64,000 nucleotides of DNA from Rhizohabitans arisaemae (lineage in GTDB: Bacteria > Actinomycetota > Actinomycetes > Streptosporangiales > Streptosporangiaceae). The notes beneath the pieces were generated by a model that was not told the DNA's origin, ran no database searches, and worked only from the letters and a program-made list of their open reading frames with translations. This document shows, piece by piece, positions 31,775 to 54,294 of this stretch. Every line of letters starts with the position of its first letter. Positions within the stretch are counted from its first letter, which is position 1. The position numbers and the translations under genes are program-made. Location: the NCBI RefSeq assembly GCF_025996515.1, contig NZ_BLRH01000034.1:1240001-1304000 (forward strand), written 5' to 3'.

Positions 31775-32123
31775 CAAGATCAAAATAATCGCGCCACGCG
31801 TCGCCGCGCGGCCCTTCCCTCACCGCCGCCGTACCGCCACGACCCCCGTGACCGAACCCCAGCCTACTCGCGGGCGGACCCCGCCCGGGCGCCTCCGCCG
31901 TGCGGCGCGGCATCGCCCTCCCGGCGTTCCGGGAACCCCGCGGACGCCCTGCCGGTACGGCCTGCGACGGCCTCGGCCGCGACGGTCCCCGCCTGACGAT
32001 CGAGCCGGGTACGGCCGGAGGCGGCGCGGGCGTACCGCCCTCGGCGGGTCCGGGCGCAGCCCGTACCGGACCGTGGTTCAGGTGGCCCGTGGTGTGCCGG
32101 CACACCACGGGCGTGGGCGGGGA
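31775..32123. other. Intergenic region, no gene seen
   Basis: About 350 bp between two minus-strand genes, presumably with the M16 operon promoter near 31770-31830, where GC content dips briefly. At 32050-32066 lies one copy (reverse orientation) of the dispersed word GGTACGGGCTGCGCC. Confidence 0.45.
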
Positions 32124-33790: not shown

Positions 33791-34047
33791 GCTACGCCCA
33801 CCCGGGGAGCGACGGAACCCGCGGACAGCCGATCCACGCCTGGCCGCAAATTAGATTAACCGCTCTAAACAGTGAGCACCCGCACGCGTGCGCCACTCGA
33901 GCGACTCCCCTGCTCCACACCACCGATCGGAACATTCGCGTCTTTATATGACTTTATATACAACTCTCATATCTCAGATCAAAAAACTTCCGGATTCTTT
34001 TTGAACTATCCCAATTTGATGGGGTCGCTTCCGCCATGATGCCTACC
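33791..34047. promoter_or_regulatory. AT-rich block upstream of peptidase gene 1
   Basis: Upstream of the first S8 gene. The stretch 33940-34028 is strongly AT-rich (TTTATATGACTTTATATA, CAAAAAACTTC, TTTTTGAAC) in a 72% GC genome. It ends exactly where the conserved leader begins. It probably contains the promoter; it may also bind a nucleoid protein of the Lsr2 type. Confidence 0.55.
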
Positions 34048-34266
34048 GCGTGATCAACACGCCTCGCGCGACGGGGGTGCGAGAGCGACCGAGGCCGGAG
34101 TGATGCTCCGGGCGGGACCTTGTGATCGACCAGGTGCCGGTACCCCGTCACCGGCCTCGACGGCTCCGCCCGTACCCGACGATCGGCGAGGTCTCACCCG
34201 GCGTGCTCCGGCTCGGTCGCCCACGCGGACGGGGACGGTCCCCATCCGCCCGGCCGAAAGGCACCG
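34048..34266 (+). promoter_or_regulatory. Conserved 219-bp leader of peptidase gene 1
   Basis: Begins GCGTGATCAACACGCCTCGC and runs to the base before the ATG. It shares, in order and spacing, the stem-loop CGCCTCGC-gcgacgggggt-GCGAG-A-GCG, the words GTGATCGACCAGGTGCC, GACGGCTCCGCCCGTACC and GACGATCGGCGAGG, and a final CCGAAAGGCACCG ribosome-binding segment with the leaders of peptidases 2, 3 and 5. The pairing at the outer stem is C-G. Confidence 0.75.
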
Positions 34267-37200
34267 ATGACATACAAAGCAGGCATAGCCGTGCTTGCCG
34301 TGGTACTCACGGCTAGCGCGGTCACCGCACCGCTCCCCTCAGCACACGCCGACCCCGGCAAACCGGGCACGCCCTCGGCTCCCGGCTCCGGCCCCGCCAC
34401 GCCGAGCCCATCCCCCACCACCGGCTCAGGGAACCCGGGCACTTCTTCCGGCTCCGGGCAACCGGCCGGCGCTCCCAGGCACGGGAACGTCACCCTGGTC
34501 ACCGGGGACACGGTGACCGTCCGGCCCGGCCCCGCGGACAGGCCACCCCATGCGGAGATCAAACCGGGTAAGGGCCGCGAGGTCTCCTTCACCCAGCGGT
34601 GGCGGGACGGCCACCTGCACGTGATCCCCTCCGACGCCCTGCCGCTGATCGGCCGCGGCCTGCTGGATCCACGGCTGTTCAACGTCACCCAGCTGCTCGC
34701 CTGGGGATACGGCGACGACCGGCGGGACGACATCCCCGTGATCTCCCAGGCCCTCCCCGGCAAAGCCACCCCGCGGCTGACCGCGGCAGAAGGCGCGAAA
34801 TCCTTCACCGGGCTGGGCCTCACCGCCTCCCGGCTGCCCAAAACACAGACGGACCGGACCTGGGCGAGCCTGGCCGCCGGCCCCGCCACCGCCAAGACCC
34901 TGGCGGGCGGCGTCACCAAGCTCTGGCTGGACGGTAAACGGGAGCCCGTCCTAGACCGCAGCGTGCCGCAGATCGGCGCCCCCACCGCCTGGGCCCAAGG
35001 CCTCACCGGCGAAGGGGTCACCGTCGCGGTCCTGGACACCGGCTACGACCCGACCCACCCCGACCTGCGCGACGCCGTCGTCCAGGCCAGGAACTTCGAC
35101 CCCGACTCCACCGACGCCGTGGACCGGAACGGGCACGGCACCCACGTCGCCTCGACCATCGCCGGATCCGGCCAGGCCTCCGGCGGCCGGCACAAGGGGG
35201 CCGCCCCCGGCGCCAAACTCGCCGTCGGCAAGGTCGGCGATTACTTCCTCTCCGATTCGGCCATCCTGGCCGGGATGACCTGGGCCGCCACCGAGGTCCG
35301 CGCCAAAGTGGTCAACATGAGCCTCGGCGGCTACGACGGGCCGGAGATCGACCCGCTGGAGCACGCGGTCAACACCCTCTCCGCCCAGCACGGCACCCTG
35401 TTCGTCGTCGCAGCGGGCAACGAAGGTCCTCAGTCGGTCGGCAGCCCGGGGAGCGCCGACGCCGCGCTCACCGTGGGTGCCGTCGACTCCGGCGACCGGC
35501 TCGCAGGATTCTCCAGCACCGGGCCGCGCAGCTGGGACAAGGCGGTCAAGCCCGACATCACCGCCCCGGGTGTCGGCATCACGGCCGCCGCGGCGGCGGG
35601 CACGGCCCCCGGCCCGTACATCGCCTACCAAGGCACCTCGATGGCTGCCCCTCATGTGGCCGGAGCCGCGGCGATCCTGGCCCAGCGCCACCCCACCTGG
35701 ACCGCCGAGCAGCTCAAGGCCACCCTCATCGGCAGCGCCGAACCCACCACGGGCACCGGGGTCTTCGCCCAGGGCGCCGGACGGGCCGACGTGGCCCGCG
35801 CGATCGCCCAGCCGGTGACCACCTCGCCCGGCACACTCTCCGCCACCCTGCCGTGGCCGCACACCGAACCGGCCACCAAGACCGTCGCCTACCACAACAC
35901 CGGCACCACGCCCCTCACCCTCGACCTGACCCTGGAGGCACCGGGCGAGGCACCGCCGCAGGGGCTGATCACGCTGCCGGCCCGGCAGGTGACCGTCCCC
36001 GCCGGCGGCCAGGCCCCGGTCACCCTGACCCTGAACCCGACCGGGATCCCCACCGGCGCCTACGCCGCCCTGCTCGTGGCCCGATCCGGGCAGACCACGG
36101 TACGGACCCCGATCGGCGCCCACGTCGAACCCGAATCCCACGACCAGGTGTTCGAGGCAGTCGGCCAGGACGGCGGCCCGGGGGAGGCCGAAGTCACGAT
36201 CTACGATCTCAACTCTGACACCAGGATGACCGCGTACACCGACGCGAGCGGCCGGCTCACGGTCCGGCTTCCCGTCGGTGAGTGGAACGTCCTGGGCGTG
36301 ATCCGCGGTGCCTCGGACCGCCGTTTCACCTTCACGCACCTCCCCCTTCGCGTCACCCGGGGCGGCCCTCCTCTGGTCCTGGACGCGCGCCCGGGCAAAC
36401 GGGTCACGTTCTCGGTCGACGAGCCGACCGCCGTCCCGAGAGGGCGTGTCGCCGTATCCTTCGTCGACCGGCAGAACGGCAGATCGTGGGAGGCGTACTA
36501 CGGGATCGGGAACGACAGACCCGGCGGCGGAGCCTACGTCGTGCCGACCCGTCGGCCCGGGCTCGGCTTCAGCGCCCGGACGATGTTCCACAAGCAGGGC
36601 GTGACTCCCAGCCCCTACCGGTACGACTTGGTCCAGTACCACCGCGCCGGCCTGCCGGAGAATCCCGTCCTGGCGGCCAGAACCGCGGAACTGGCCAAGG
36701 TCAGCGCCACCTACCGGAGCGACACGCCCGCAGGCGGCACAGGCGAGATAGCCATGTACGCGCTGGCACCCCACGAAACCGTGGCGTTCCCCCTCGACGG
36801 TGCCGTCCCCCTGCCCGGCACCGTGACGCACTACCGCACCCCCGGGAACGGAATCACCTGGAGTTCATCACTCATCCGACGCCCATCGTGGCAGGTCGTC
36901 TCGGACTCCTGGCGGACCCTGGAACGGAAGGACTACACCGAGACGTGGAACAACGCGGTCTTCGGACCGGCCCCCCGAACCGGGGAATCCGCCCGGACCG
37001 GTGACGCGCTCCGCTACACGGCCGACTCCCTGTTCTCCGACGGCACACCCGGCCGGACCAGTGAGGACGCCGGCGTCACCGGCACGATCACCCTCAGCAA
37101 GGACGGCCAGACCCTGGGCCGGACCGAGTTCACCGAATGCTGGGCCGGGTTGCCGGAAAACCCCTGCGCCCTCAACGCCCAACTCCCCGCCGGCAGCGGC

Positions 37201-37638
37201 CGCTACACCCTCACCACCAGCGCCCTGCGGGACCCGTCCGTCGGCGCCCTGTCCACCAAACTCGAAACGGCGTGGACCTTCACCTCCGCGCACACCACCA
37301 CGGCCACCCCGCTTCCGCTGACAAGCGTCCGCCAGACCCCCCACGGGCTGGACACCGCCAACCGCGCCAGGCACGGCACCCTCACCCCGATCACCCTGCG
37401 CGCCGAACGCGCCCCCGGCGCACCCGCGGCCAAGACCACCTCACTGCGAATGGAGGCCTCCACCGACGACGGAACCACCTGGCGGCCCGTCCTGGTCATC
37501 CCCGCCGTCGGCGGCTGGACCGCGTTCGTCCCCAACCCCACCGCCGGCGACTTCGTCTCCCTGCGCACCGTCGCCGTCGACACCGCGGGAAACACCGCCA
37601 CCCAGACCGTCACCCGCGCCTACGCCCTGACCCCGTGA
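34267..37638 (+). CDS. Secreted subtilisin-like (S8) serine peptidase, paralogue 1
   Basis: Extracellular endopeptidase of 1123 residues. Signal peptide about 1-28 (VLAVVLTASAVTAPLPSAHA), a Pro/Gly/Ser-rich linker (30-70, longer than in the other paralogues), a propeptide (about 72-235; VTLVTGDTVTV, RLFNVTQLLAWGYGD), then the catalytic domain (about 240-530) with Asp257 in VLDTGYD, His290 in GHGTHVA, oxyanion Asn385 in AAGNEGP and Ser458 in GTSMAAPH. A fibronectin-like domain follows (about 545-640), then a long C-terminal region shared only with the other four genes, ending VTRAYALTP. First of five tandem paralogues. ATG at 34267 is preceded by GAAAGG. Substrates unknown. Confidence 0.92.
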   Translation: MTYKAGIAVLAVVLTASAVTAPLPSAHADPGKPGTPSAPGSGPATPSPSPTTGSGNPGTSSGSGQPAGAPRHGNVTLVTGDTVTVRPGPADRPPHAEIKPGKGREVSFTQRWRDGHLHVIPSDALPLIGRGLLDPRLFNVTQLLAWGYGDDRRDDIPVISQALPGKATPRLTAAEGAKSFTGLGLTASRLPKTQTDRTWASLAAGPATAKTLAGGVTKLWLDGKREPVLDRSVPQIGAPTAWAQGLTGEGVTVAVLDTGYDPTHPDLRDAVVQARNFDPDSTDAVDRNGHGTHVASTIAGSGQASGGRHKGAAPGAKLAVGKVGDYFLSDSAILAGMTWAATEVRAKVVNMSLGGYDGPEIDPLEHAVNTLSAQHGTLFVVAAGNEGPQSVGSPGSADAALTVGAVDSGDRLAGFSSTGPRSWDKAVKPDITAPGVGITAAAAAGTAPGPYIAYQGTSMAAPHVAGAAAILAQRHPTWTAEQLKATLIGSAEPTTGTGVFAQGAGRADVARAIAQPVTTSPGTLSATLPWPHTEPATKTVAYHNTGTTPLTLDLTLEAPGEAPPQGLITLPARQVTVPAGGQAPVTLTLNPTGIPTGAYAALLVARSGQTTVRTPIGAHVEPESHDQVFEAVGQDGGPGEAEVTIYDLNSDTRMTAYTDASGRLTVRLPVGEWNVLGVIRGASDRRFTFTHLPLRVTRGGPPLVLDARPGKRVTFSVDEPTAVPRGRVAVSFVDRQNGRSWEAYYGIGNDRPGGGAYVVPTRRPGLGFSARTMFHKQGVTPSPYRYDLVQYHRAGLPENPVLAARTAELAKVSATYRSDTPAGGTGEIAMYALAPHETVAFPLDGAVPLPGTVTHYRTPGNGITWSSSLIRRPSWQVVSDSWRTLERKDYTETWNNAVFGPAPRTGESARTGDALRYTADSLFSDGTPGRTSEDAGVTGTITLSKDGQTLGRTEFTECWAGLPENPCALNAQLPAGSGRYTLTTSALRDPSVGALSTKLETAWTFTSAHTTTATPLPLTSVRQTPHGLDTANRARHGTLTPITLRAERAPGAPAAKTTSLRMEASTDDGTTWRPVLVIPAVGGWTAFVPNPTAGDFVSLRTVAVDTAGNTATQTVTRAYALTP

Positions 37639-37660
37639 CCATCTGATCCTGCCGAACAGC

Positions 37661-37691
37661 GGCCGTGGCTCCGGACCCCGGGGCCACGGCC
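37661..37691 (+). terminator. Hairpin terminator of peptidase gene 1
   Basis: Stem GGCCGTGGC / GCCACGGCC with a GC-rich loop, 22 bp after the stop. The same GCCGTGGC stem recurs after peptidases 2, 4 and 5. Confidence 0.7.
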
Positions 37692-37817
37692 CCTCCCGTG
37701 CGGGGCACCGCGGCGTGCCCTGCGACGCCGGAGGGTCGTTCGCCCTGAACGGTACGGCGTACGCCGGGCCCGCAACCGACCGCGGTCACCCATGCGAGCG
37801 ACGTCTCGACGGCACCA

Positions 37818-37947
37818 TTACCCTAATTCACCCATATAGCGATTTATATGCGATTCGCTGCAAAGTTTCCCTATCTCATATACATAAATATCGCATTTCT
37901 CTTAGATATCTAGAAATTTCGTGATTGGTTCCGCCATGATGTCGCCT
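37818..37947. promoter_or_regulatory. AT-rich block upstream of peptidase gene 2
   Basis: AT-rich stretch with GATTTATATGCGATTCG and CATATACATAAATATCGC, ending at the conserved leader. The last 20 bases (TTCCGCCATGATG) are shared with the block before gene 1. Probable promoter region. Confidence 0.55.
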
Positions 37948-38166
37948 GCGTGATCACACACGCCTCGCGCGACGGGGGTGCGAGAACGAACCGGGCCGGA
38001 GCGACGTCCCGTGCAGAACCGTGCGATCGACCAGGTGCCACGTCCCCGTCCACGGCCACGACGGCGCAGCCCGTACCGGACGATCCTCGGCATCCCGCTC
38101 ACGGACTCCGGCCTGATCGCCCGACGCGGACGGGAAGACCCCGATCCGCCGGACCGAAAGGTGCCG
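37948..38166 (+). promoter_or_regulatory. Conserved 219-bp leader of peptidase gene 2
   Basis: Same length as the leaders of genes 1 and 5. Holds ACACGCCTCGCGCGACGGGG, then GTGCGAGAACGA; here the outer stem position is a C-A mismatch. GTGCGATCGACCAGGTGCCA and CCCGTACCGGACGATC follow. The frame is open through it, but the reading is arginine/proline-rich and does not match the other leaders as protein. Confidence 0.75.
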
Positions 38167-41100
38167 ATGCGACGGAAAGCCAGTGTCACCGCCCTCGCCG
38201 TGGCGTTCGCCATGGGGGCCGTGGCGATCCCCCCACCTGTACACGCCGACCCGGGCGGGCCGGGTTCCGCCGACGGAGCAGCCTCTCCTGCCGCTGCCCC
38301 CACGAGCGGCCGGGTGACCCTGATCACCGGTGACCGGGTCACGGTGCTGCCCGGCACAAAGACGGACGAGCCACCTCACGTCCGCATCGAGCCGGGGAAG
38401 GGACGCACCGTCTCCTTCAGCCAACGCCGGTTCAACGGCCGGCTGTCCGTGGTGCCCTCCGACGCGCAGCCGCTGATCGACCAGGGGCTGCTGGACGAAC
38501 GGCTCTTCGACGTGACCCGGCTGCTCGCCTGGCACTACGGAGACGCGCACCGCGACGACATCCCGGTGATCACGCAGACTTCCGGCAAAGGCACCCCCGC
38601 ACAGCTGAAGGCCGCCGAGCAGAGCAAGGTCCTTCCCGGACTCGGCATGACCGCCGCCGAGATCCCCAAGGCCGCGACCGCCGAGACCTGGCGGAGCCTG
38701 AGCGCCGGCGCCGGGGCGCGCACCCTGGCGAGCGGGATCACCAAGCTCTGGCTCGACGGGCGGCGCTCGTTCGCCCTCGACCGGAGCACCGCCCAGATCG
38801 GCGCCCCCACCGCGTGGGCCCAGGGCCTCACCGGCGCCGGTGTGAACGTGGTCGTCCTGGACAGCGGGTACGACGCGAACCACCCCGACCTGCGGGACGT
38901 CGTCGTCCAGGCCAGGAACTTCGACCCCGACTACCCCGACGCCCGCGACGATCTCGGCCACGGCACCCATGTCGCGTCCATCGTCGCCGGCTCCGGACAG
39001 GCCTCCTCAGGCCGGTACCGCGGGGTGGCGCACGGGGCCAGGCTCTTCATCGGGAAGGTCGGCGGGCCGCACGGGCCGCGGGACTCGGCGATCCTGGCCG
39101 GAATGAGCTGGGCCGCCGTGGAGGTCAAGGCCAAGGTCGTCAACATGAGCTTCGGGGATCTCGACACCCAGGAGATCGACCCGCTGGAGCATGCGGTCAA
39201 CACGCTCACCGCGCAGACCGGCACCCTTTTCGTGGCCGCCGCGGGCAACGGCGGCCCTCAGTCGGTCGGCAGCCCCGGAAGCGCCGACGCCGCGCTGACC
39301 GTCGGGGCCGTCGACTCCGGCGACCGGCTCGCCGACTTCTCCAGCACCGGCCCCCGGACCGGCGACAAGGCGATCAAGCCCGACGTCACCGCGCCCGGGG
39401 TGGACATCGTGGCCGCGAACCTCGACAGGGGCACCCAGCCCCCGGCCGCCCCCTACGTTTCAAGCAGCGGCACCTCCATGGCCGCGCCGCACGTGACCGG
39501 TGCCGCGGCGATCCTCGCCCAGCGCCACCCCACCTGGACCGCCGAGCGGCTCAAAGCCGCGCTGATCGGCAGTGCCGTGCCCACCGGCGGCAACGGGGTG
39601 TTCCAGCAGGGCGCCGGGCGGGTCGACGTGGCCCGCGCGGTGGCCCAGCCGGTCACCGCCCTCCCCGGCACCCTCTCCACGGTGCTCCCGCACAACACCG
39701 GGCCGGCGAACAAAACGGTCGTCTACGCCAACTCCGGCGACACACCACTCACCCTGGACCTGGCCGTGGAGAAGTCCGGCTCGCCGCCGCCCCAGGGCCT
39801 GCTGTCGCTTTCCACCCGGCAGGTGACCGTCCCCGCCGGGGGCGAGGCGTCGGTGAGCCTCACCTTCGACCGGGCCGGAGCCGGTATCGGGGTCCACGCC
39901 GCCACGCTCGTCGCGCGTTCGGGACAGGTCTCCGTGCGCACCCCGGTGGGCGCCCACGTGGAGCCGGAGTCCCACCGTCTGGGCGTCGAGGCCGTCGCCC
40001 CCGACGGGAGCCCCGGGAACGGCACGGCCTACGCCTACAACCTGGCGACCGGTGAGGAGCAGCCGATCCTCATCCGGAACGGTACGGGCGGCGCCCGGCT
40101 TCCCGCGGGAGACTGGGACCTCTACGCCGAGTTCAGCATCGGTCGCAGGCCTCTGGACCACACCATCGCCCATGTCCCGGTACGCGTGGCGGCCGGAACC
40201 GCCCCGGTGGTCCTGGACACCCGCAGGCGCAAGGAGATCCGGTTCTCGGTGGACGAGCCGACTGCAGTGCCCGACTTCTTCCAGATGTGGCTCGCCAACC
40301 GGCGGAACGGCGCGTCCTGGGCCAAGCAGCTGTTCTTCCCCTTCAGCGGACCCGACGACCGGTTCTTCGTCCTGCCCGTGCAGCAGCCCGGGCTCGGCTT
40401 CACCGCGTGGACCACCCTGTACAAGCAGGGCGTGCCGTACAGTCCCTACCGCTACGACCTGGTCAAGCACCACGACGGGGGACTCCCCGCGGATCCGGCG
40501 TACACGGCGCGGACCGCGGACCTGGCCAAGGTCACCGCCCTCTACCGCAGCGCCGGCACCGCCACGGGAAGCGCCTCGATAATCCTGTCGTCCCCGGCCG
40601 GAAGGGCCGCGTACTACAGGGAAACAGAGGTGTCCCTGCCCAGCACCGTGACGCACTACCGCACCCCCGGACCCGGCTTCACCTGGCAGTCCGTCTTCAT
40701 GGACGGGCAGTCGTGGCAGTCGGTTGGGGACACCGGACGGACCCTGCAGCGGCGGGACTACACCGAGGTGTGGAACAACGCGGTCGCCGGGCCCGCCCCG
40801 CAAGCCGGCGACTCCGCCCGTACCGGCGACGAACTCCGGTACGCGCCCCTCTCGCTCTTCGCCGACGGCACCCCGGGGCGTTTGGCGTACGACGCGGGGG
40901 TCGGCGGCACCGTCACCCTGGCCCGAGGCGGCCAGGTCCTCGCCAGGTCCGAGTTCAACGACTGCTGGGACGCGGCCGACTGCACCGTGCGGACGCGACT
41001 GGCGCCGGAGGAAGCGGAGTACACCCTCACCACCGTCGCCCGCAGGGGTCCCGAGAGCGGCTCGCTGTCCACGGCGGCCGAGACGGCGTGGACCTTCCGT

Positions 41101-41457
41101 TCCGCCCGTACGGAGCGGGCGACCCCGCTTCCGCTGACGACCGTGCGCTTCACCCCGCTGGGCCTGGACGACCGCAACCGGGCCAAGCGCGGCTCCCTGA
41201 CCCCGATCCCGATGCGGATCGAGCCCGTACCCGGCGCCCCCGCCGCGGCGGTGAGCTCGCTCCGGGTGGAGGCCTCGTTCGACGACGGGGCCACCTGGCG
41301 GCAGATCCCGGTCGTCCCCGGTGCGCACGGCACCTGGACCGGTTTCCTGCTCAACCCCAAGGTGGGGGACTTCGTTTCGCTGCGCGCCGTCGCCGTCGAC
41401 CGCGCGGGCACCACGGTCAAGCAGACGATCACCCGGGCCTACGCCCTCACCCCTTGA
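38167..41457 (+). CDS. Secreted subtilisin-like (S8) serine peptidase, paralogue 2
   Basis: 1096 residues with the same layout as paralogue 1 but a shorter linker: signal peptide to about residue 27 (AVAFAMGAVAIPPPVHA), propeptide, catalytic domain with Asp232 (VLDSGYD), His265 (GHGTHVA), Asn361 and Ser437 (GTSMAAPH), fibronectin-like domain and the shared C-terminal region, ending ITRAYALTP. It differs most from the others in the loops after the histidine (KVGGPHGPRDSA) and before the serine (NLDRGTQPPAAPYVSS, where the others have an Ala-rich AAAAAGTAP). Different substrate preference is therefore likely. The ATG at 38167 matches the signal peptide start; the frame extends upstream only through the leader. 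Confidence 0.92.
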   Translation: MRRKASVTALAVAFAMGAVAIPPPVHADPGGPGSADGAASPAAAPTSGRVTLITGDRVTVLPGTKTDEPPHVRIEPGKGRTVSFSQRRFNGRLSVVPSDAQPLIDQGLLDERLFDVTRLLAWHYGDAHRDDIPVITQTSGKGTPAQLKAAEQSKVLPGLGMTAAEIPKAATAETWRSLSAGAGARTLASGITKLWLDGRRSFALDRSTAQIGAPTAWAQGLTGAGVNVVVLDSGYDANHPDLRDVVVQARNFDPDYPDARDDLGHGTHVASIVAGSGQASSGRYRGVAHGARLFIGKVGGPHGPRDSAILAGMSWAAVEVKAKVVNMSFGDLDTQEIDPLEHAVNTLTAQTGTLFVAAAGNGGPQSVGSPGSADAALTVGAVDSGDRLADFSSTGPRTGDKAIKPDVTAPGVDIVAANLDRGTQPPAAPYVSSSGTSMAAPHVTGAAAILAQRHPTWTAERLKAALIGSAVPTGGNGVFQQGAGRVDVARAVAQPVTALPGTLSTVLPHNTGPANKTVVYANSGDTPLTLDLAVEKSGSPPPQGLLSLSTRQVTVPAGGEASVSLTFDRAGAGIGVHAATLVARSGQVSVRTPVGAHVEPESHRLGVEAVAPDGSPGNGTAYAYNLATGEEQPILIRNGTGGARLPAGDWDLYAEFSIGRRPLDHTIAHVPVRVAAGTAPVVLDTRRRKEIRFSVDEPTAVPDFFQMWLANRRNGASWAKQLFFPFSGPDDRFFVLPVQQPGLGFTAWTTLYKQGVPYSPYRYDLVKHHDGGLPADPAYTARTADLAKVTALYRSAGTATGSASIILSSPAGRAAYYRETEVSLPSTVTHYRTPGPGFTWQSVFMDGQSWQSVGDTGRTLQRRDYTEVWNNAVAGPAPQAGDSARTGDELRYAPLSLFADGTPGRLAYDAGVGGTVTLARGGQVLARSEFNDCWDAADCTVRTRLAPEEAEYTLTTVARRGPESGSLSTAAETAWTFRSARTERATPLPLTTVRFTPLGLDDRNRAKRGSLTPIPMRIEPVPGAPAAAVSSLRVEASFDDGATWRQIPVVPGAHGTWTGFLLNPKVGDFVSLRAVAVDRAGTTVKQTITRAYALTP

Positions 41458-41481
41458 TCACCTAGCCGTCCGGCTCAACGG

Positions 41482-41509
41482 CCGTGGCCCCCGGGCTCCG
41501 GGGCCACGG
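41482..41509 (+). terminator. Hairpin terminator of peptidase gene 2
   Basis: Stem CCGTGGCCCC / GGGGCCACGG with an 8-base loop followed by TCTTTCC, 24 bp after the stop. Confidence 0.75.
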
Positions 41510-41542
41510 TCTTTCCCCGCGGGCGGCTCCGGGATTGTGCGG

Positions 41543-41593
41543 GTGACCGTTGTGGTGAACACCTGCCGGAGCGCGCACAGCGCAATTTTCACC
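41543..41593. repeat. Interspersed palindromic repeat, degenerate copy E
   Basis: Aligns with copy D: GTGACCGTTGTGGT, CCGGAG, GCGCACAGCGCAA, then CACC. The right arm has decayed (AATTTT in place of ACGAT). Homology with the flank of copy D goes on for about 35 bp past the repeat (GGTACGGCGGACGCGGCCGA). Confidence 0.7.
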
Positions 41594-41694
41594 GGGCCGG
41601 TACGGCGGACGCGGCCGAACTCGACGGGCTCAGCAAGGAGCCGGGCGCCGGGCGTACCCAGCCCGGACCATTAGGTGCCTCCACCCCCGCCGCA

Positions 41695-41860
41695 ACAACC
41701 AGCAATAGGCAAAAAACTCCCATTTCAGCCACTGATCCACTGGGTGTATTTCGATAATAATTACCATTTGCCAGATATGTCCACTTCCACATTTGTATGT
41801 AGATACGAAGTTCAATGGAACGCGGCGATAAATAGGAGCAATTCGATGATCATGACGCCA
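41695..41860. promoter_or_regulatory. AT-rich block upstream of peptidase gene 3
   Basis: AT-rich stretch (TTTCGATAATAATTACC, TGTATGTAGATACGAAG, GATAAATAGGAGC) between the 3' flank of gene 2 and the conserved leader. Probable promoter region. Confidence 0.55.
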
Positions 41861-42081
41861 ACGTGATTCACACGTCTCGCGCGACGGGGGTGCGAGGACG
41901 ATCGAGCCCGAGGGACAACCGCGACAGGACACCGTGATCGACCAGGTGCCGCCGCCCCGTCCACCGGCCTTGACGGCTTCGCCCGTACCGGACGGTCAGC
42001 GGGGTTCCCGCCCGACGTACTCGGGCTCGGTCGGCCGGAGCGGACGGGGTGATCCCCGCCCGCCGAGCCGAAGGGCACCAG
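41861..42081 (+). promoter_or_regulatory. Conserved 221-bp leader of peptidase gene 3
   Basis: Begins ACGTGATTCACACG. The stem-loop reads CGTCTCGC-gcgacgggggt-GCGAG-G-ACG, so the outer pair is T-A where genes 1 and 5 have C-G. The words GTGATCGACCAGGTGCC, CGCCCGTACCGGACGGTC and GAGCCGAAGGGCACC keep their order and spacing. Confidence 0.75.
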
Positions 42082-45000
42082 ATGAGATGTAAAACCGGAA
42101 TCGCCGCACTCGCGGTGGTGGTCGCCGCAAGCGTCTTCACACCCCCATCCTCCGTCCACGCCGACCCCGGGAAACCGAGCGCACCCCGGACCGCCGGAAA
42201 ACCGGCCGACGTGCCGAAGTACGGCGACGTCACCCTGATCACGGGAGACCGCGTCACCGTCGCGGCCGGCCCCGCAGAGGGCTCGCCCCAGGTGGAGGAG
42301 GTCGTCCCGGGGAAGGGTCGTGACGTGACCTTCGTCCAGCGGCGGCGGGACGACCACCTGTACGTCATCCCCTCCGACGCGATGTCGCCGATCGCCCGCG
42401 GCCTGCTGGACGAACGGCTTTTCAACGTCACCCAGCTGCTGGCCTGGGGATACGGGGACGCCCAGCGCGACGACATCCCGGTGATCGTCCAGTCCGACGC
42501 CAAGGCCGCGACCCCTCGCCTGAAGGCCGCGGAGGACACCCGGGCCTTCGCCGGGCTCGGGCTGGCCTCCTCCCGCCTGCCCAAGAACCAGGCGACCGAG
42601 ACCTGGACGGGCCTCGGCGGCTCGGCCGACGCCAAGACCCTGGCAGGCGGGGTCACCAAGCTCTGGCTGGACGGAAAGCGGCAGCCCACCCTGGAACGCA
42701 GCGTCCCCCAGATCGGAGCCCCCGCCGCCTGGGCCCAGGGCCTCACCGGGGAAGGCGTGACCGTGGCCGTGGTGGACACCGGCTACGACGCCACCCACCC
42801 CGACCTGCGTGACGTGGTCGTCCAGTCCAAGAGCTTCAAACCGGGCGCACCGCCCGACGCCGACCCCAACGGACACGGCACCCACGTCGCCTCCATCCTC
42901 GCCGGATCGGGCCAGGCCTCATCCGGCAAGAACCGGGGAGTCGCGCCCGGGGCCAGACTCGCCGTCGCCAAGGTCGGCGATGAAATGGGCATGCCCGACT
43001 CCGAAATCCTGGCCGGGATGCTCTGGGCCATCACCGAGGTCAAGGCGAAGATCGTCAACATGAGTCTCGGCGGCTCCGACGGAGCGGAGATCGACCCGCT
43101 GGAACACGCGGTCAACACCCTCACCGCCCAGCACGGCACTCTGTTCGTCATCGCCGCCGGCAACGAAGGCCCCCGGTCCATCGCCAGCCCGGGCAGCGCC
43201 GACGCCGCGCTCACCGTGGGCGCCGTCGACCCCGCCGACCGGCTTGTCGACTGGTCCAGCACCGGACCGCGCAACTGGGACAAGGCCGTCAAACCCGATA
43301 TCACCGCGCCGGGTTCCGAGATCATCGCCGCCGCGGCGGCGGGCACGGCCCCCGACCCGTACACGCCGATGAGCGGCACCTCGATGTCCGCTCCCCATGT
43401 GGCGGGGGCGGCGGCGATCCTGGCCCAGCGAAACCCCACCTGGACCGCCGAGCAGCTCAAAGCCGCCCTCATCGGCAGCGCCGTACCCACCGCGGGCACC
43501 GGGGTCTTCGCCCAGGGCGCCGGACGGGTCGACGTGGCCCGCGCGATCGCCCAGCCGGTGACCGCCTCCCCGAGTACCCTCTCGACGGTGCTCCCCTGGG
43601 CACAGTCCGGAACGCCGGTCACCAAGACCGTCGTCTACCGCAACTCCGGCACGGCACCCCTCACCCTGGACCTGACCGTGGAACAATCCGGCGGCCCGCT
43701 GCCGGACGGGCTTCTGGAGCTCCCGGTCCGGCAGGTGACCGTGCCCGCCGGGGGTGAGGCACCGGTGACGTTCACCCTCAACCCCGCCGGGGTGCCGACG
43801 GGTGCCTACGCCGCCGTGCTCGTCGCCCGATCGGGCGAGGTCACGGTGCGGACCCCGGTCGGCGCCCATGTCGAACCCGAGTCCTACAACGTGACCGTGC
43901 AGGTGACCGGCCTCAGCACCGACCGGACCTCCGGATCCGCCACCCTTTACAATCCGGCCACGCGTGAACAGATGGAGGTGTGGCTACGGGACGGCAAAGC
44001 CCAAGCCCGGCTGACCGCGGGAGCGTGGATCCTGGTGCCCCTGCTCTTCTCGCGGGAACTCCGGCGGTTCATCACGGCGTACCGCTCGTTCCGGGCGGAG
44101 GCCGACGCCGCGCCCGTCGTCCTGGACGGGAAACAGGTCAGGCCGGCGACCTTCTCAGTGGACGAGCCGACCGCGATCCCGGCCAACTTCATCTCGTTCG
44201 CGATCGCCGACCGGCAGGACGGCACATCCTGGTCCTACGGCACGGGCATCTTCGGGCGCGACGCCAACACGCTCCTCGGCGTCATTCCGGTCACGCAACC
44301 CGGGGTCGCCTTCGCCGCCTGGACCACCTGGCAGCAGCAGGGGGCCGTGCTCAGCCCCTACCGTTACGATCTGGTCAAGTACCACGAGGGAGGCATCCCC
44401 GACCCGGTCTACGCCGCGAAGACCGCCGACCTGGCCAAGAGCGAGGTCACCTTCCGGCGCGTCCTCCCCACCGCCGGAACCGGCTTGCTGGGGTCGGGGC
44501 TGATCATGGGGACCCGCCTGGACCAGGTGTCCACCCGGGTGGCCCTGCCCGGAACCCTGATCCACTACCGCACCCCGGGCCAGGCACTCGCCTGGCAGTC
44601 GGCGTTGACCGACCGCGAGTCCAGGACCCAGACCTATGAGGTCGCCCGGGCCAGGCGCCACGGGAACTCGACCGAGGTGTGGCCCACCGCGGCCTTCGGC
44701 CCCGCACTCCGGCCCGGCCACTCCACCCGTACCGGCGACGAACTCCGGTACATTCCGAGCTCACTCTTCGCCGACGGGTCTCCCCGGCGGTACAGCAACG
44801 ACTGGGGACTCCAGGCCACGGCCACCCTCACCAAGGACGGGCAGACCCTCGGCCGGATCGAGTTCACCAGCTGCATGATGTTCCTGGAATTCTGCACCCT
44901 GAAGACCTCGGTCCCACCCGGCGAAGCCGTCTACACCCTCACCACCGCCGCCCAAAGGAACCCCGGAGCCGGGGGACTGTCCACGGCGACGGAGACGGCC

Positions 45001-45366
45001 TGGACCTTCCGCTCCTCCCGCACCGAACGGCCGCAGGCACTCCCGCTGATGACCGTGCGCTACCGGCCGATGGGCCTCGACCAGTTCAACCGCGCCCGGG
45101 CCGGTACCCTCACCCCGATCCCGTTGCAGGTCGAAGGGGTCCCGGGTTCCCCCGCCCCAGCCGTCCGAACCCTCACCGTGGAGGCGTCCGCCGACGACGG
45201 CGCCACCTGGCGGCGAATCCCGGTCCTCCCCTCGCCCGGCGGCTGGACCGCGTTCGTCCTCAACCCCGCCGCGGGGGACTTCGTCTCCCTCCGCACCGTC
45301 GCCGTCGACCGCGCGGGCACCACGGTCAAGCAGACCATCACCCGGGCCTACGCCCTGGCCTCATGA
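42082..45366 (+). CDS. Secreted subtilisin-like (S8) serine peptidase, paralogue 3
   Basis: 1094 residues. Signal peptide to about 27 (AVVVAASVFTPPSSVHA), propeptide, catalytic Asp232 (VVDTGYD), His265 (GHGTHVA), Asn361 and Ser434 (GTSMSAPH), fibronectin-like domain and shared C-terminal region ending ITRAYALAS. Variable points are SFKPGAPPDADPN before the histidine, KVGDEMGMPDSE after it, and the C-terminal stretch around residue 645-700, which includes a hydrophobic LVPLLFSRELRRF absent in the others. The ATG at 42082 follows GAAGGG. Its 3' end carries a different terminator from the rest of the array. Confidence 0.92.
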   Translation: MRCKTGIAALAVVVAASVFTPPSSVHADPGKPSAPRTAGKPADVPKYGDVTLITGDRVTVAAGPAEGSPQVEEVVPGKGRDVTFVQRRRDDHLYVIPSDAMSPIARGLLDERLFNVTQLLAWGYGDAQRDDIPVIVQSDAKAATPRLKAAEDTRAFAGLGLASSRLPKNQATETWTGLGGSADAKTLAGGVTKLWLDGKRQPTLERSVPQIGAPAAWAQGLTGEGVTVAVVDTGYDATHPDLRDVVVQSKSFKPGAPPDADPNGHGTHVASILAGSGQASSGKNRGVAPGARLAVAKVGDEMGMPDSEILAGMLWAITEVKAKIVNMSLGGSDGAEIDPLEHAVNTLTAQHGTLFVIAAGNEGPRSIASPGSADAALTVGAVDPADRLVDWSSTGPRNWDKAVKPDITAPGSEIIAAAAAGTAPDPYTPMSGTSMSAPHVAGAAAILAQRNPTWTAEQLKAALIGSAVPTAGTGVFAQGAGRVDVARAIAQPVTASPSTLSTVLPWAQSGTPVTKTVVYRNSGTAPLTLDLTVEQSGGPLPDGLLELPVRQVTVPAGGEAPVTFTLNPAGVPTGAYAAVLVARSGEVTVRTPVGAHVEPESYNVTVQVTGLSTDRTSGSATLYNPATREQMEVWLRDGKAQARLTAGAWILVPLLFSRELRRFITAYRSFRAEADAAPVVLDGKQVRPATFSVDEPTAIPANFISFAIADRQDGTSWSYGTGIFGRDANTLLGVIPVTQPGVAFAAWTTWQQQGAVLSPYRYDLVKYHEGGIPDPVYAAKTADLAKSEVTFRRVLPTAGTGLLGSGLIMGTRLDQVSTRVALPGTLIHYRTPGQALAWQSALTDRESRTQTYEVARARRHGNSTEVWPTAAFGPALRPGHSTRTGDELRYIPSSLFADGSPRRYSNDWGLQATATLTKDGQTLGRIEFTSCMMFLEFCTLKTSVPPGEAVYTLTTAAQRNPGAGGLSTATETAWTFRSSRTERPQALPLMTVRYRPMGLDQFNRARAGTLTPIPLQVEGVPGSPAPAVRTLTVEASADDGATWRRIPVLPSPGGWTAFVLNPAAGDFVSLRTVAVDRAGTTVKQTITRAYALAS

Positions 45367-45372
45367 CCCTTG

Positions 45373-45399
45373 AAGGAGCCGCAGGGTCCGCGGCTCCTT
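45373..45399 (+). terminator. Hairpin terminator of peptidase gene 3
   Basis: Perfect 10-bp stem AAGGAGCCGC / GCGGCTCCTT with a 7-base loop, 6 bp after the stop. Its sequence is unrelated to the GCCGTGGC hairpins after the other four peptidase genes. Confidence 0.75.
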
Positions 45400-45592
45400 C
45401 CGGCGGCCGCCGCGACGGCGTGAGCCGACCGCGTGGGACAAGGCGACGTACATACTCCGATCTGGCACCTCCATAAACCGCCCAGACCAGCACGATACGG
45501 GCTGCGCCTGGCGCTCACCGTCTCCGCCGCACCACGCGAGTCATTCGTTCCGGCGCCCGGCAACCATTGCCCAATCCGATCGAGAGGCACCG
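45400..45592. promoter_or_regulatory. Upstream region of peptidase gene 4, lacking the leader
   Basis: Only 193 bp, GC-rich, with neither the AT-rich block nor the conserved stem-loop. The stretch around 45490-45535 (ATACGGGCTGCGCC, then CTCCGCCGCA) resembles the region after peptidase 5 near 52934-52975 instead. Only the last bases (GAGAGGCACCG) match the other leaders. Confidence 0.55.
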
Positions 45593-48500
45593 ATGAGACT
45601 CAGAGCCGGAATCGCCGCGCTCGCCACGCTGCTCACCGCCGGCGTCGTCACGACACCGCCACCCTCAGCCCACGCCGAACCCGGGAATCCCGGCGTGGCC
45701 GACGGCCCCCGGCGGTCGGCCGACGCCCCGAAGCACGGGGACGTGACCCTGATCACCGGTGACCGGGTCACCGTCCTGCCCGGCCCCAAGGACGGTCCGC
45801 CCCCGGCGCGGATCACACCGGGCGAGGGTCGTGCGGTCACCTTCACCCAGCGGTGGCGGGACGGCCACCTGCACGTGATCCCCTCCGACGCCCTGCCGCT
45901 GATCGGCCGCGGTCTGCTGGACGAGCGACTGTTCGACGTCACCCAGCTGCTGGCCTGGGGATACGGGGACGCCCACCGCGACGACATCCCGGTGATCGTC
46001 CAGTCCGACGCCACGGCCGCGACCCCTCGCCTGACGGCGGCGGAGGGGACCGGCTCCTTCCCCGGACTCGGGCTCTCCGCCGCACGCCTGCCCAAAAAGC
46101 AGACGGCCGCGACCTGGGAAAGCCTGGGGACCTCCGTCACCGCCAAGAGCCTGGCGGGCGGGGTGACCAAGCTCTGGCTGGACGGGAAACGCACCCCCGT
46201 CCTGGACCGCAGCGTCCCCCGGATCGGCGCCCCCACCGCCTGGTCCGAGGGACTCACCGGGGACGGGGTGACGGTCGCGGTGCTGGACAGCGGCTACGAT
46301 CCGGCCCACCCGGACCTGCGCGACGCCGTCGTCCAGGCCAGGAACTTCGATCCGGACTCCCCCGACGCCTACGACCGGTACGGGCACGGCACCCACGTCG
46401 CCTCGGTCGTCGCCGGATCCGGGCAGGCCTCCGACGGCCGGCACAAGGGGGTCGCCCCGGGCGCCAGGCTCGCCATCGGAAAACTCGGCGATCGGTCGTT
46501 CACCGACTCCGTCCTCCTGGCCGGAATGACCTGGGCCGCCGGCGAGGTCAAGGCCAAGGTCGTCAACATGAGCCTCGGCGGTCCCGACGGCCCCGAGATC
46601 GACCCGGTGGAGCACGCGGTCAACACCCTCACCGCCCAGCACGGCACCCTGTTCGTCGTCGCCGCAGGCAACGGCGGTCCCCGGTCGATCAGCAGCCCGG
46701 GCAGCGCCGACGCCGCGCTCACCGTCGGCGCCGTCGACCCCGACGACCGGCTCGCCGGCTTCTCCAGCACCGGGCCGCGCAACTGGGACAAGGCGGTAAA
46801 ACCTGACATCACCGCACCCGGAGTCGACATCACCGCCGCCGCGGCGGCGGGCACGGCCCCGGGCCCGTACGTCGCCTACCGAGGCACCTCCATGGCCGCT
46901 CCGCACGTCGCCGGGGCGGCGGCCATCCTGGCCCAGCGCCACCCCACCTGGACCGCCGGACAGCTCAAAGCCGCACTCGTCGGCAGCGCCGTCCCAAGTG
47001 TCGGCGCCGGTGCCTTCGAGCAGGGTGCCGGGCGGGTGGACGTGGCCCGCGCGATCGCCCAGCCGGTCGTCGCCGAGCCGGGCACCCTCTCCACCACGCT
47101 GCCCTGGCCACAGACCGGCGGTCCGGTCGCCAAGACCGTCGTCTACCGCAACTCCGGCGCGGCTCCGCTCGCTCTGGATCTGACGCTGGAGGGCTCCCTG
47201 CCGCAGGGGCTGGCGGAGGTTTCGACCCGGCAGGTGACCGTCCCCGCCGGGGGAGAGGCACCGGTGACCCTCACCCTCAACCCCGCCGGGGTACCGACGG
47301 GTGCGTACGCCGGTGTGATCGTCGCCCGGTCGGGACAGACCACGGTACGGACCCCGCTCGGCGTCCACGTCGAGCCCGAGTCCCACGACCAGCGGATCGA
47401 GGTGATCGGCCCGGACGGCCGTCCCGGGTCGGCCTTCATCACGATCTACAACCTGGTCACGGATGAGAGCGAACGGATTCTCGTCGCAGGCGGACGCGCC
47501 ACCGCCAGGTTGCCTGTCGGGGAGTGGAACGCCTTTGGGGAGATCTTCACGGATTCGGGTCTGGACAGCACCCTCCTCCACCTTCCCTTACGCGTGACGC
47601 CGGGCGATGCCCCCCTGGTGCTTGACGCGCGGCAGGCCCGTGAAGTGAGGTTCTCCGTCGACGAGCCGACGGCCGTCCGGGACGAGAACCTGGCCGTGAC
47701 GATCGCGAACCGTCAGGGTGACAAGACGTGGAGCCAGGTCATGATGATCTACAATCCGGGCTTGCGCGCCAAGATCTCCGTCCTGCCGAGCCGGCAACCC
47801 GGAGTCGGATTGAGTCTCCGCACCGTCTGGCACAAGCGGGGCGCGAACCCCAGTCCCTACCGCTACGACCTGGTCCAGCACCATCGGGGAGGCCTGCCCG
47901 CCGACCCTACCCTGGCGGCCAGGACCGCGGAGCTGGCCAAGGTGACCGCCGTCTACCGGAGCACGGCACCGGACGACCGCACCGCCGACATCGGTGTGCA
48001 GGCCACGGCCCCCGGCGAGCCGTCGTCGTTCAGCTTCCCGGAGGCCGTGCCGGTTCCCGGCACCCTGATCCACTACCGCGTCCCCGGGGACGGCATCGTC
48101 TGGAGCTCGTGGCTCAGCCACGAGGACGGGCACACCATCGAGGACGCCGGGCGGACCGTTCGGCGGAGGAACTACACCGAGCCGTGGAACAACGCCGTCA
48201 TCGGACCGGCCCTTCGCGCCGGCGAATCGATCCGGACCGGTGACGAACTCCGCTACACGGCCAGTTCGCTGTTCACCGACGGCACGCCCGGCCGGTACGG
48301 CGACGACGCCTCCCTCACCGGCACCGTCGTCCTGGCCAAGGACGGGCTCACCCTCGGCCGGGCCGAGTTCACCGAATGCCATCGCTGGTTCCCGGACAAC
48401 ACCTGCACCGTCACCGCGCAACTCCCGCCCGGCGGCGGCGTCTACACCCTCACCACCACCGCACACCGCAACCCCGCGGTCAGCGCCCTGTCCACCCGGA

Positions 48501-48877
48501 TCGAGGCGGCCTGGACCTTCACCTCCGCGCGGACGGCCACGGCCACCCCGCTTCCGCTGGCGATCGTCCGGCACATCGCGCTGGGCCTGGACATCGCCAA
48601 CCGCGCCAAGCACGGAACCCGCACCCCGATCGCACTCCGCGTCGAACGCGCCCCCGGTGCCGCGGCGGCGAAGGTCACCTCGCTGAGAGTCGAGGCGTCG
48701 AGCGACGACGGCGCCACATGGCGGCCGATCCCGGTCGTCCCTTTCCCGGGAGGCTGGACCGCGTTCTCCCCCAACCCGGCCTCGGGCCGGTTCGTGTCAC
48801 TGCGGACCGTCGCCGTCGACAGCGTGGGCACCACGGTCAAGCAGACGATCACCCGGGCCTACGCCCTGACCCCGTGA
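45593..48877 (+). CDS. Secreted subtilisin-like (S8) serine peptidase, paralogue 4
   Basis: 1094 residues. Signal peptide to about 28 (ATLLTAGVVTTPPPSAHA), propeptide, catalytic Asp232 (VLDSGYD), His265 (GHGTHVA), Asn360 and Ser433 (GTSMAAPH), fibronectin-like domain, shared C-terminal region ending ITRAYALTP. It shares a 73-nucleotide identical run with gene 1 in the propeptide (45840-45912 against 34586-34658), although their surroundings differ, a sign of gene conversion. Unlike its neighbours it lacks the AT-rich block and the conserved leader, so it may be read from gene 3 or follow a different signal. ATG at 45593 with GAGAGG upstream. Confidence 0.92.
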   Translation: MRLRAGIAALATLLTAGVVTTPPPSAHAEPGNPGVADGPRRSADAPKHGDVTLITGDRVTVLPGPKDGPPPARITPGEGRAVTFTQRWRDGHLHVIPSDALPLIGRGLLDERLFDVTQLLAWGYGDAHRDDIPVIVQSDATAATPRLTAAEGTGSFPGLGLSAARLPKKQTAATWESLGTSVTAKSLAGGVTKLWLDGKRTPVLDRSVPRIGAPTAWSEGLTGDGVTVAVLDSGYDPAHPDLRDAVVQARNFDPDSPDAYDRYGHGTHVASVVAGSGQASDGRHKGVAPGARLAIGKLGDRSFTDSVLLAGMTWAAGEVKAKVVNMSLGGPDGPEIDPVEHAVNTLTAQHGTLFVVAAGNGGPRSISSPGSADAALTVGAVDPDDRLAGFSSTGPRNWDKAVKPDITAPGVDITAAAAAGTAPGPYVAYRGTSMAAPHVAGAAAILAQRHPTWTAGQLKAALVGSAVPSVGAGAFEQGAGRVDVARAIAQPVVAEPGTLSTTLPWPQTGGPVAKTVVYRNSGAAPLALDLTLEGSLPQGLAEVSTRQVTVPAGGEAPVTLTLNPAGVPTGAYAGVIVARSGQTTVRTPLGVHVEPESHDQRIEVIGPDGRPGSAFITIYNLVTDESERILVAGGRATARLPVGEWNAFGEIFTDSGLDSTLLHLPLRVTPGDAPLVLDARQAREVRFSVDEPTAVRDENLAVTIANRQGDKTWSQVMMIYNPGLRAKISVLPSRQPGVGLSLRTVWHKRGANPSPYRYDLVQHHRGGLPADPTLAARTAELAKVTAVYRSTAPDDRTADIGVQATAPGEPSSFSFPEAVPVPGTLIHYRVPGDGIVWSSWLSHEDGHTIEDAGRTVRRRNYTEPWNNAVIGPALRAGESIRTGDELRYTASSLFTDGTPGRYGDDASLTGTVVLAKDGLTLGRAEFTECHRWFPDNTCTVTAQLPPGGGVYTLTTTAHRNPAVSALSTRIEAAWTFTSARTATATPLPLAIVRHIALGLDIANRAKHGTRTPIALRVERAPGAAAAKVTSLRVEASSDDGATWRPIPVVPFPGGWTAFSPNPASGRFVSLRTVAVDSVGTTVKQTITRAYALTP

Positions 48878-48895
48878 TCGTCTGACAGCGGTACG

Positions 48896-48931
48896 ACAGC
48901 CGTGGCCGCCGGATTCCGGGACCACGGCTGT
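48896..48931 (+). terminator. Hairpin terminator of peptidase gene 4
   Basis: Perfect 10-bp stem ACAGCCGTGG / CCACGGCTGT with a 16-base loop, 19 bp after the stop. Confidence 0.75.
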
Positions 48932-49039
48932 CCGAATCGTTCCGTGGCCCTGCGGCTTTCACCACGGCAAATCTTGAGAATCCCGTCGGACCCGTCGAAC
49001 TTCCCGCCACCGCTCCGACCGGAGCCGCTGTCACTTACC

Positions 49040-49186
49040 GCGATATTGCACAGATTCCATCATTCGCCCCATTATAGAGCTTTTTATACAGTCGCCATAT
49101 GTCACATATATATAAATACCATATAAATCCATATCGTTACTGAAATCCATTTATGAAGCGATATCGAGTCGTTGATGATGGCGGCT
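49040..49186. promoter_or_regulatory. AT-rich block upstream of peptidase gene 5
   Basis: The strongest AT island in the window: TTTTTATACAGTCGCC, then CATATGTCACATATATATAA and ACCATATAAATCC, ending at the conserved leader. Probable promoter region. Confidence 0.55.
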
Positions 49187-49405
49187 GCGTGATTCACACG
49201 CCTCGCATGACGGGGGTGCGAGAGCGATCGAGCCGGAGGGACAACCGGGGCAGGACTCTCTGATCGACCGGGCGCCGCCACCCCGTCCACCGGCCACGAC
49301 GGCTCCGCCCGTACCGGACGATCGGCGAGGTTCGGCCTGACGGGCTCCGGCTCGGTCGGCCGGAGCGGGCCGGGAAACCCCGGCCGCCGAGCCGAAAGGC
49401 GATCG
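49187..49405 (+). promoter_or_regulatory. Conserved 219-bp leader of peptidase gene 5
   Basis: Begins GCGTGATTCACACGCCTCGC; the loop has ATGACGGGGGT where the others have GCGACGGGGGT. Outer stem pair C-G. CTGATCGACCGGGCGCCGCC, GACGGCTCCGCCCGTACC and GACGATCGGCGAGGTTC keep the order and spacing of the other copies. Confidence 0.75.
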
Positions 49406-52400: not shown

Positions 52401-52702
52401 CCCCGCTCGGCCTGGACACCGCCAACCGCGCCAGGCGAGGCACCCTCACCCCGATCCCCCTCCGCGTCGAACGCGCCCCGGGAGTCCCTGAAGCGAGGGT
52501 TACCTCGATCCAGGTCGAGGCGTCGGCCGACGACGGCGTCACCTGGTGGCCGATCCCGGTCCTGCCGACAGCCGACGGCTGGACCGCGTTCGTCCTCAAC
52601 CCCGCCGCCGGCGACTTCGTCACCCTGCGCACCGCCGCCGCCGACCGCGCCGGCACCACCGTCAAGCAGACGATCACCCGCGCCTACGCCCTGACCCGCT
52701 GA
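49406..52702 (+). CDS. Secreted subtilisin-like (S8) serine peptidase, paralogue 5
   Basis: 1098 residues. Signal peptide to about 27 (VAILTGLVTAAPPVHA), short Pro/Gly linker, propeptide, catalytic Asp236 (VLDTGYD), His269 (GHGTHVA), Asn364 and Ser437 (GTSMAAPH), fibronectin-like domain, shared C-terminal region ending ITRAYALTR. Distinctive loops are KLGTWGFSESA after the histidine and NMSLSGFDRPGID, where the others have SLGG or SFGD. Like gene 4 it shares the exact RWRDGHLHVIPSDA coding stretch with gene 1. ATG at 49406 with GAAAGG upstream. It closes the array and is followed by a hairpin and repeat copy D. Confidence 0.92.
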   Translation: MRYKAGPTTLAVAILTGLVTAAPPVHAGPGTPPGPAGPGAPVSGKAPAVPGHGDITLITGDRVTVLPGPQDGPPQTKITPGKGRSVTFTQRWRDGHLHVIPSDAREPLARGLLDERLFDVTQLLAWGYGDDRRDDIPVIVQSNVKTAAPPLKAAEDAMSFTGLGLTSSHLPKSRVTEAWKSLGASTGAKTLVGGVTKLWLDGKRAPALERSVPQIGAPTAWAQGLTGEGVTVAVLDTGYDPTHPDLRDAVVQARSFDPEDPDVRDRDGHGTHVASTVAGSGQASGGRHKGVAPGAKLAIGKLGTWGFSESAVLAGMIWAATEVKAKVVNMSLSGFDRPGIDPLEHAVNALTAETGTLFVVAAGNDGPQSVTSPGSADAALTVGAVDKNDGLADFSSTGPRNWDKAIKPDITAPGVAIIAAAAAGTAPGPYTARLGTSMAAPHVAGAAAILAQRHPTWTAEQLKAALIGSAVHKGDAGVFGQGAGRVDVARASTQTVTASPATLSTRFPWPHTGGPVAKTVVYRNWGTTPLTLDLTVEQSGAPLPQGLLELPDREVTVPAGGEAPVTFTLHPAASRAGTHAGVLVARSGEATVRTPVGAHVEPESHDQVIETIGADGGPSLASIEFYNPATGERVDLPTSTGRITARLPLGNWNVYSTIYTPSDRGTTFAHLPFRVEPGGAPLVLDARKGKQITFSVDEPTAVPNPELALTFVNRRNGKLWFESINMWLMTPNTRISVLPSRYPGTGFSARTVWQKRDTYPSPYRYDLIQHHQGGLPDNPTMNAKTTELAKVTATYRSTNPAGGTVFVGTRAYAPGEPTAFPQATALPLPGTLTHYRVPGKDIVWGTTLFHDTGQFTEDQNRTLRRRHYTEVWNNAVFGPAPRTATRTGDELRYRDTSLFADGTPGRTSTDSRTTGTITLTEDGQTLGRTEYTECLNWEPYSCSLTARLPAAGGVYTLTSVARRDPGVGALSTKVETAWTFRSARTATAAPLPLTTVRYTPLGLDTANRARRGTLTPIPLRVERAPGVPEARVTSIQVEASADDGVTWWPIPVLPTADGWTAFVLNPAAGDFVTLRTAAADRAGTTVKQTITRAYALTR

Positions 52703-52841: not shown

Positions 52842-53059
52842 AGGCCGATACGGCGGACGCGGCCGAACCCGGCGGACCTGGTCCGGACCGCACCCACCCC
52901 GACATCGCACCCCCGCGTGTCACCCGGACCCGCACGGTACGGGCTGCGCCGGGCCCAGTACCGGCCTCCGCCGCAACGGTCAAGCCGCCTCCGGCCGTAC
53001 CGGCCGAACCGACGCCGCGATCAGGGTGACCTGCGACGGCCCATGGTGAGCGCGAGACA

Positions 53060-54169: not shown

Positions 54170-54294
54170 CTGATGGTACCTATTCCGACATTTGCTGGAA
54201 ATATGCCTATTTCTAGTCGGTAGTCGGATATCTGGGGGGAGGGATACGGTCGACCGCAACCCGCCCGGCACAAGCGGCGGAGAAGGAGCGAACC

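Follow-up and report, generated by a model that had tools for sequence, protein, structure and literature searches.

A conserved, probably structured leader precedes four of five tandem subtilase genes in Rhizohabitans arisaemae

The window analysed here, a 64,000-nucleotide stretch of the Rhizohabitans arisaemae genome (contig NZ_BLRH01000034.1; positions are counted from the first letter of the stretch), carries a tandem array of five plus-strand genes encoding S8 subtilases (PF00082), located at 34267-37638 (gene 1), 38167-41457 (gene 2), 42082-45366 (gene 3), 45593-48877 (gene 4) and 49406-52702 (gene 5), with a mutual protein identity of 59-69%. An initial annotation, made from the sequence alone, had described blocks of 219, 219, 221 and 219 nt in front of four of these genes, and we could confirm their coordinates on the plus strand: 34048-34266 (leader 1), 37948-38166 (leader 2), 41861-42081 (leader 3) and 49187-49405 (leader 5), abutting the start codons of genes 1, 2, 3 and 5, respectively. 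No leader block was found upstream of gene 4, where by eye just the final ~15 nt before the ATG are similar, and a sixth close paralogue outside the array (C8:1140120-1143431, minus strand; 63% identity to gene 5) is leaderless as well. The source genome comprises 8.3 Mb at 70% GC and alone represented its genus among the genomes searched.

Pairwise identity between the leaders was 75.1-83.6%, and a blastn search of the same genome with leader 1 as query recovered the other three with E values of 1.6e-40 to 1.2e-45. A covariance model built from these very four sequences scored them at 204.6, 203.4, 220.6 and 213 bits (leaders 1, 2, 3 and 5). After correction for base composition, leader identity reached 0.64-0.76 as compared to 0.22-0.40 for the fourfold-degenerate sites in the corresponding pairs of genes, with the leader being higher in 6/6 comparisons. 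The similarity sets in ~15 nt before the block and drops toward background in the AT-rich DNA further upstream, and the signal-peptide codons 3' of the leader are less conserved than the leader itself. As the leaders are more alike than fourfold sites and their flanks less alike, the block has been held back either by selection or by gene conversion confined to it.

Folding the four-leader alignment with RNAalifold yielded a consensus that opens with two hairpins (H1 and H2), continues with an inner domain enclosed by a long-range stem of 14 pairs (H3) and ends with a further hairpin, which holds the Shine-Dalgarno (SD) sequence; we give plus-strand positions in leader 1. H1 (34048-34062) is a GCGTG-loop-CACGC hairpin with mean pairing probabilities of 0.71-1.00 in all four leaders, the outer pair being A-U in leader 3 and G-C in the other three. 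H2 (34063-34083) is a CTCGC/GCGAG stem with an invariant GACGGGG loop, predicted with probabilities of 0.95-0.99 in leaders 1-3 and 0.02 in leader 5. H3, the longest stem and one absent from the initial annotation, joins 34086-34100 to 34206-34219 through 14 pairs; 96.4% of its cells are paired, both partners have changed in two of the pairs, and the pairing probability is 0.96, 0.63, 0.93 and 0.01 for leaders 1, 2, 3 and 5, respectively. Further inside, the 3' arm of a helix H5 (34168-34185) overlaps a variant of the word GGCGCAGCCCGTACC. The SD hairpin (34253-34262), GCC-GAAA-GGC in leader 1 and ACC-GAAA-GGT in leader 2, encloses the SD bases, which are predicted to be largely paired in the leaders, one SD base of leader 5 being free. 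Invariant columns make up 67-90% of H1, H2, H3 and the core, 47% of the surroundings of the SD hairpin and 29-33% of the linkers.

Statistical tests support the view that this coding-strand fold has been kept by selection across the four paralogous leaders. The consensus energy was -83.3 kcal/mol, compared to -61.4 ± 4.7 in column-shuffled alignments (z -4.70; 0/300 shuffles as low), and the reverse complement of the alignment gave z -1.52, with 22/300 shuffles as low. Since column shuffles do not preserve dinucleotides, we used control windows along the array: among 34 plus-strand windows, those on the 5' and middle parts of the leader reached z -3.7 to -3.9, and the remaining 32 lay between -1.8 and +1.2. 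In a leave-one-out test, the fold was predicted from three leaders and broken pairs were counted in the fourth, using 5000 permutations. The total of 37 broken pairs compares to 52.7 ± 4.1 expected with substitutions placed on variable columns and to 68.6 ± 4.7 with substitutions placed on any column sharing the same consensus base. Permutations on variable columns were as low in a share of 0.25, 0.05, 0.004 and 0.05 for leaders 1, 2, 3 and 5, respectively. The corresponding z value was -3.75 for the leader, -2.57 to +2.95 for 29 coding windows of the array and +0.41 for the leader reverse complement. Folded as a single sequence, leader 1 scored z -4.5 against dinucleotide shuffles. Together, conservation above that of synonymous sites, the consensus energy and a leave-one-out score beyond 29/29 controls bear out the initial proposal of a selected RNA structure.

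Several results weigh against selection on an RNA fold. The sample comprises four sequences, all of them paralogues from one genome. The plus-strand window on the 3' half of the leader gave z -0.57, and on the opposite strand we obtained z -2.2 for the 5' leader window, -3.53 for the middle window and -2.98 for one coding window. Leader 5 alone favours another fold, with probabilities of 0.01-0.02 for H2, H3 and the core, and single-sequence folding was weak in leader 5 (z -1.9) and null in leaders 2 (-0.06) and 3 (-0.3). The SD bases of the leaderless gene 4 are predicted to be paired as well, so that SD pairing is no marker of leader genes, and a sigma-70 scan returned no plus-strand promoter at the leaders. 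Two-sided compensatory changes showed no excess in the leave-one-out test (4 versus 3.9-4.0 expected), and the alifold covariation term was not better than in shuffles, 229/300 of which were at least as good.

The initial annotation had regarded the CTCGC/GCGAG stem-loop as covarying. This could not be established, as two-sided changes are not in excess in the leave-one-out test and the chosen stem hardly varies: the five core pairs of H2 are invariant, and both variable pairs changed on one side only. The C-to-T change in leader 3 fits H1 better, where the partner base switches from G to A. Across the fitted structure, two-sided changes occur in 6/66 pairs; when the 3' letters are shuffled, 26/500 replicates reach this count and 7/500 the covariation score. 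When H1, H2, H3 and the SD hairpin are taken by themselves, two-sided changes occur in 4/29 pairs, reached by 17/500 shuffles (8/500 for the covariation score). Both outcomes are weakly positive. The evidence for the leader is thus conservation of the fold, and the single covarying pair noted before is no evidence alone.

We also assessed the coding potential of the block, for which no shared reading frame had been reported. Literally taken, this did not hold, as each of the four leaders keeps one and the same frame open up to alignment column 155; its substance did, as we found no coding signal. The stop-free frame lacks a common start, and from column 47 to ~106 the phase of leaders 1 and 2 differs from that of leaders 3 and 5. 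The latter two differ at 21 sites when compared in phase (columns 1-175), and these sites are spread evenly over the three codon positions as 8, 6 and 7. Stop-free frames are expected in DNA of 72-74% GC, and we therefore did not read this frame as coding. A peptide-coding leader of the attenuator type was rejected for the missing shared start, the phase shifts and the lack of codon-position bias. Separately, an ATG...TGA frame of 5-6 codons is present at 34036-34053 and at the equivalent positions of all four leaders, with its stop inside the 5' arm of H1; plain shared ancestry may account for it.

Every leader follows a putative promoter region, unusually AT-rich and read on the plus strand, at 33880-34029 (leader 1; 48% GC), 37780-37929 (leader 2; 43% GC), 41690-41842 (leader 3; 42% GC) and 49019-49168 (leader 5; 39% GC). 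The 150 nt before 4/4 leaders have 39-48% GC, and of 15859 windows of 150 bp, taken from 800 kb of this genome in stretches that were not randomly chosen, 0-0.3% are as poor in GC. Such a region precedes 0/2 leaderless close paralogues, that is, gene 4 and the paralogue at C8:1140120-1143431. Inverted repeats lie 3' of each array gene, as separate transcripts would have, their folding energies being given without a shuffled control. From this arrangement we infer that the AT-rich stretches are promoters and that the natural unit runs from AT-rich promoter through GC-rich leader and gene to a hairpin, with gene 4 lacking the first two and perhaps being expressed by read-through from gene 3. The spacer between genes 3 and 4 (45367-45592) holds an inverted repeat after gene 3, no leader and no AT-rich stretch. 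Within the leaders, a search for terminator-like sites found none.

Beyond the array, we looked for the leader at several levels. In agreement with the initial failure to assign a riboswitch class, Rfam yielded no match inside the leaders at either gathering or permissive thresholds; one miRNA-type match beside a leader and two matches within genes were set aside as chance. Both blastn and the covariance model found four copies in the source genome, the whole-genome model search having scored 150 of 23219 candidates and reported only the four leaders. Across 150 family genomes (the source genome included; five candidates scored per genome), blastn gave merely short matches elsewhere, of ~40-54 bits. 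The H2 word, the most conserved one of the leader, occurs with up to two mismatches in 116/341 family genomes, with similar counts per genome, judged by eye, for its reversed control; the exact word was present, among the matches listed for these 341 genomes, at the four leaders only. When the covariance model was run on the window and 30 loci of homologous or paralogous genes, including 20 homologous genes in 11 other genomes and five Nonomuraea loci, it recovered the four leaders, followed by a next best match of 19.4 bits (E 0.015). The best hit of the model in 800 kb of the source genome, a 119-nt match without the core (25.2 bits, E 0.0027), was judged to be chance. The whole-protease relatives named, all from one scan, are the five Nonomuraea loci, at 48-50% identity. 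Homologues without the leader had been put forward as a finding that would speak against a selected structure, and part of that pattern is seen, the distant sixth paralogue and the homologues examined elsewhere being leaderless. Accordingly, as far as these capped searches reach, the leader is restricted to this lineage and not ancestral to the protease family. The literature matches listed contained no description of the leader or of the dispersed word described below.

The central arm of the leader coincides with a short word dispersed in the genome. The 15-mer GCGCAGCCCGTACCS has 106 copies in the source genome, compared to 1 for its reversed control, and 0-3 copies per genome in 59 relatives; within the window it lies at 32054-32068 (plus strand), 38064-38078 (plus strand) and 52935-52949 (minus strand). 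The 3' arm of H5 overlaps GGCGCAGCCCGTACC, of which leader 2 holds an exact copy at 38063-38077. Leaders 1, 3 and 5 have GCCCGTACC in common together with adjacent changes, the exact word thus being present in 1/4 leaders. In 800 kb of the genome, made up of stretches partly selected because they hold the word, 43/50 occurrences of a 14-mer version were intergenic by crude gene calls, against a background of 24%, and 30 of the 42 occurrences with both neighbours called were nearest to a stop codon. The word measures 15-16 bp, is not palindromic and has random flanks; close inverted pairs, 28-29 bp apart, number three among 50 occurrences. Given the random flanks, a binding or signal function seems to suit it better than membership in the palindromic REPs (repetitive extragenic palindromes), and for the same reason we abandoned the idea that the central hairpin is a REP. 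The 15-mer GCGCAGCCCGTACCS is possibly the binding site of a chromosome-wide factor. The sixth paralogue (C8:1140120-1143431) is flanked by the word on both sides.

The explanation that we prefer, with a probability somewhat above even, is a lineage-restricted structured 5' untranslated region (UTR) that affects the stability of the mRNA, the start of its translation, or both. Within the messenger, the leader probably adopts an RNA fold and adjusts protease output; regulatory leaders of this kind are known, and the present one seems to be an example specific to its lineage. Mechanistically, it would form the 5' UTR of every protease transcript, made from a promoter in the adjoining AT-rich DNA and starting presumably close to H1. 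The predicted fold would consist of the 5' hairpins H1 and H2, an H3-closed domain around a conserved core (H5/H6) and the small SD hairpin, and may influence one or both of these processes in cis, in a manner analogous to the Bacillus aprE leader.

Alternatively, the blocks could be a remnant of tandem duplication, kept alike by local gene conversion or recent ancestry and devoid of RNA function. The copies found all lie within one tandem array, and eight informative leader sites support the grouping 1+2/3+5, against three and two otherwise, a pattern that differs from much of the coding sequence. However, the similarity is limited to the leader, with 5' DNA near background and less similar signal-peptide codons on the 3' side; its excess over fourfold sites holds for 6/6 pairs; and substitutions spare the pairs in a strand-specific manner, which conversion alone does not predict. 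We regard a mere remnant as unlikely.

Somewhat less probable still is a function at the DNA level, in which the block would be an extended region bound by a regulator or nucleoid protein and its inverted repeats would be protein sites. The overlap of the central part with the 106-copy, mostly intergenic word, the short dyad of H1, which could be an operator, and the leader window that scores on the opposite strand too are all consistent with this idea; yet conservation of the fold over the whole leader is stronger on the coding strand, the exact word is found in just 1/4 leaders, and binding sites are usually shorter than a block of 219 nt and near-fixed length that reaches the SD. A switch sensing a ligand or protein, refolding to free the SD or to halt transcription, would fit the conserved core with its invariant loops, the largely paired SD bases (one free in leader 5) and the alternative fold of leader 5, as a two-state RNA might show. 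Known metabolite switches are usually distributed family-wide, however, and no such distribution was seen for the leader, nor any Rfam class even at permissive thresholds, nor a terminator-like site in the leaders, leaving such a switch quite improbable. Of lowest probability, in our estimate, is a composite scenario, in which a lineage-specific RNA took the dispersed word into its core, a word-binding factor links the array to a wider regulon and the two-state fold of leader 5 acts as the switch.

Around the array, the window contains an M16-type peptidase gene (29035-30369, minus strand) and, as the next gene identified past gene 5, a PucR-type regulator (53060-54271, minus strand), from which a serine hydroxymethyltransferase-like gene (54295-55602, plus strand) diverges. 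Two adjacent glycine riboswitch aptamers lie at 762-979 on the minus strand (Rfam RF00504; 68.5 and 49.3 bits).

How much of a secreted enzyme is made can depend on a structured leader in front of its protease gene, and gene 4 and the distant paralogue provide natural leaderless counterparts, that is, a ready system for measuring the effect of the leader. If the preferred reading of a structured 5' UTR is right, the array also shows that a structured RNA confined to one lineage can escape family-based searches. Like riboswitches and the cis-regulatory leaders of Rfam, the block would be a conserved structured RNA placed directly before the SD; unlike these, it has no Rfam match, and its four copies are paralogues within a single genome. 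REPs of the GTAG/CGTC-tagged families are, according to an excerpt of PMC3733652, mostly intergenic and nearer stop codons. The short word under the central arm of the leader resembles them in its roughly one hundred, mostly intergenic copies nearer stop codons, but it is non-palindromic, has no conserved flank and rarely forms close inverted pairs, and the complete leader is not a dispersed element. The closest parallel is the aprE leader of Bacillus subtilis, whose 5' stem-loop stabilizes the subtilisin mRNA. It seems smaller than the actinomycete leader, which differs in its long-range stem, its conserved core and its high-GC host, and the likeness is one of description only. The precedent of the aprE leader with regard to stem-loops is cited in an excerpt of PMC7509114. 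In the modelled fold, H1 lies at the 5' edge of the block, as would suit an aprE-type stabilizer, and both systems would combine a structured 5' UTR, a hairpin close to where the transcript presumably begins, an SD and a gene for a secreted S8 protease.

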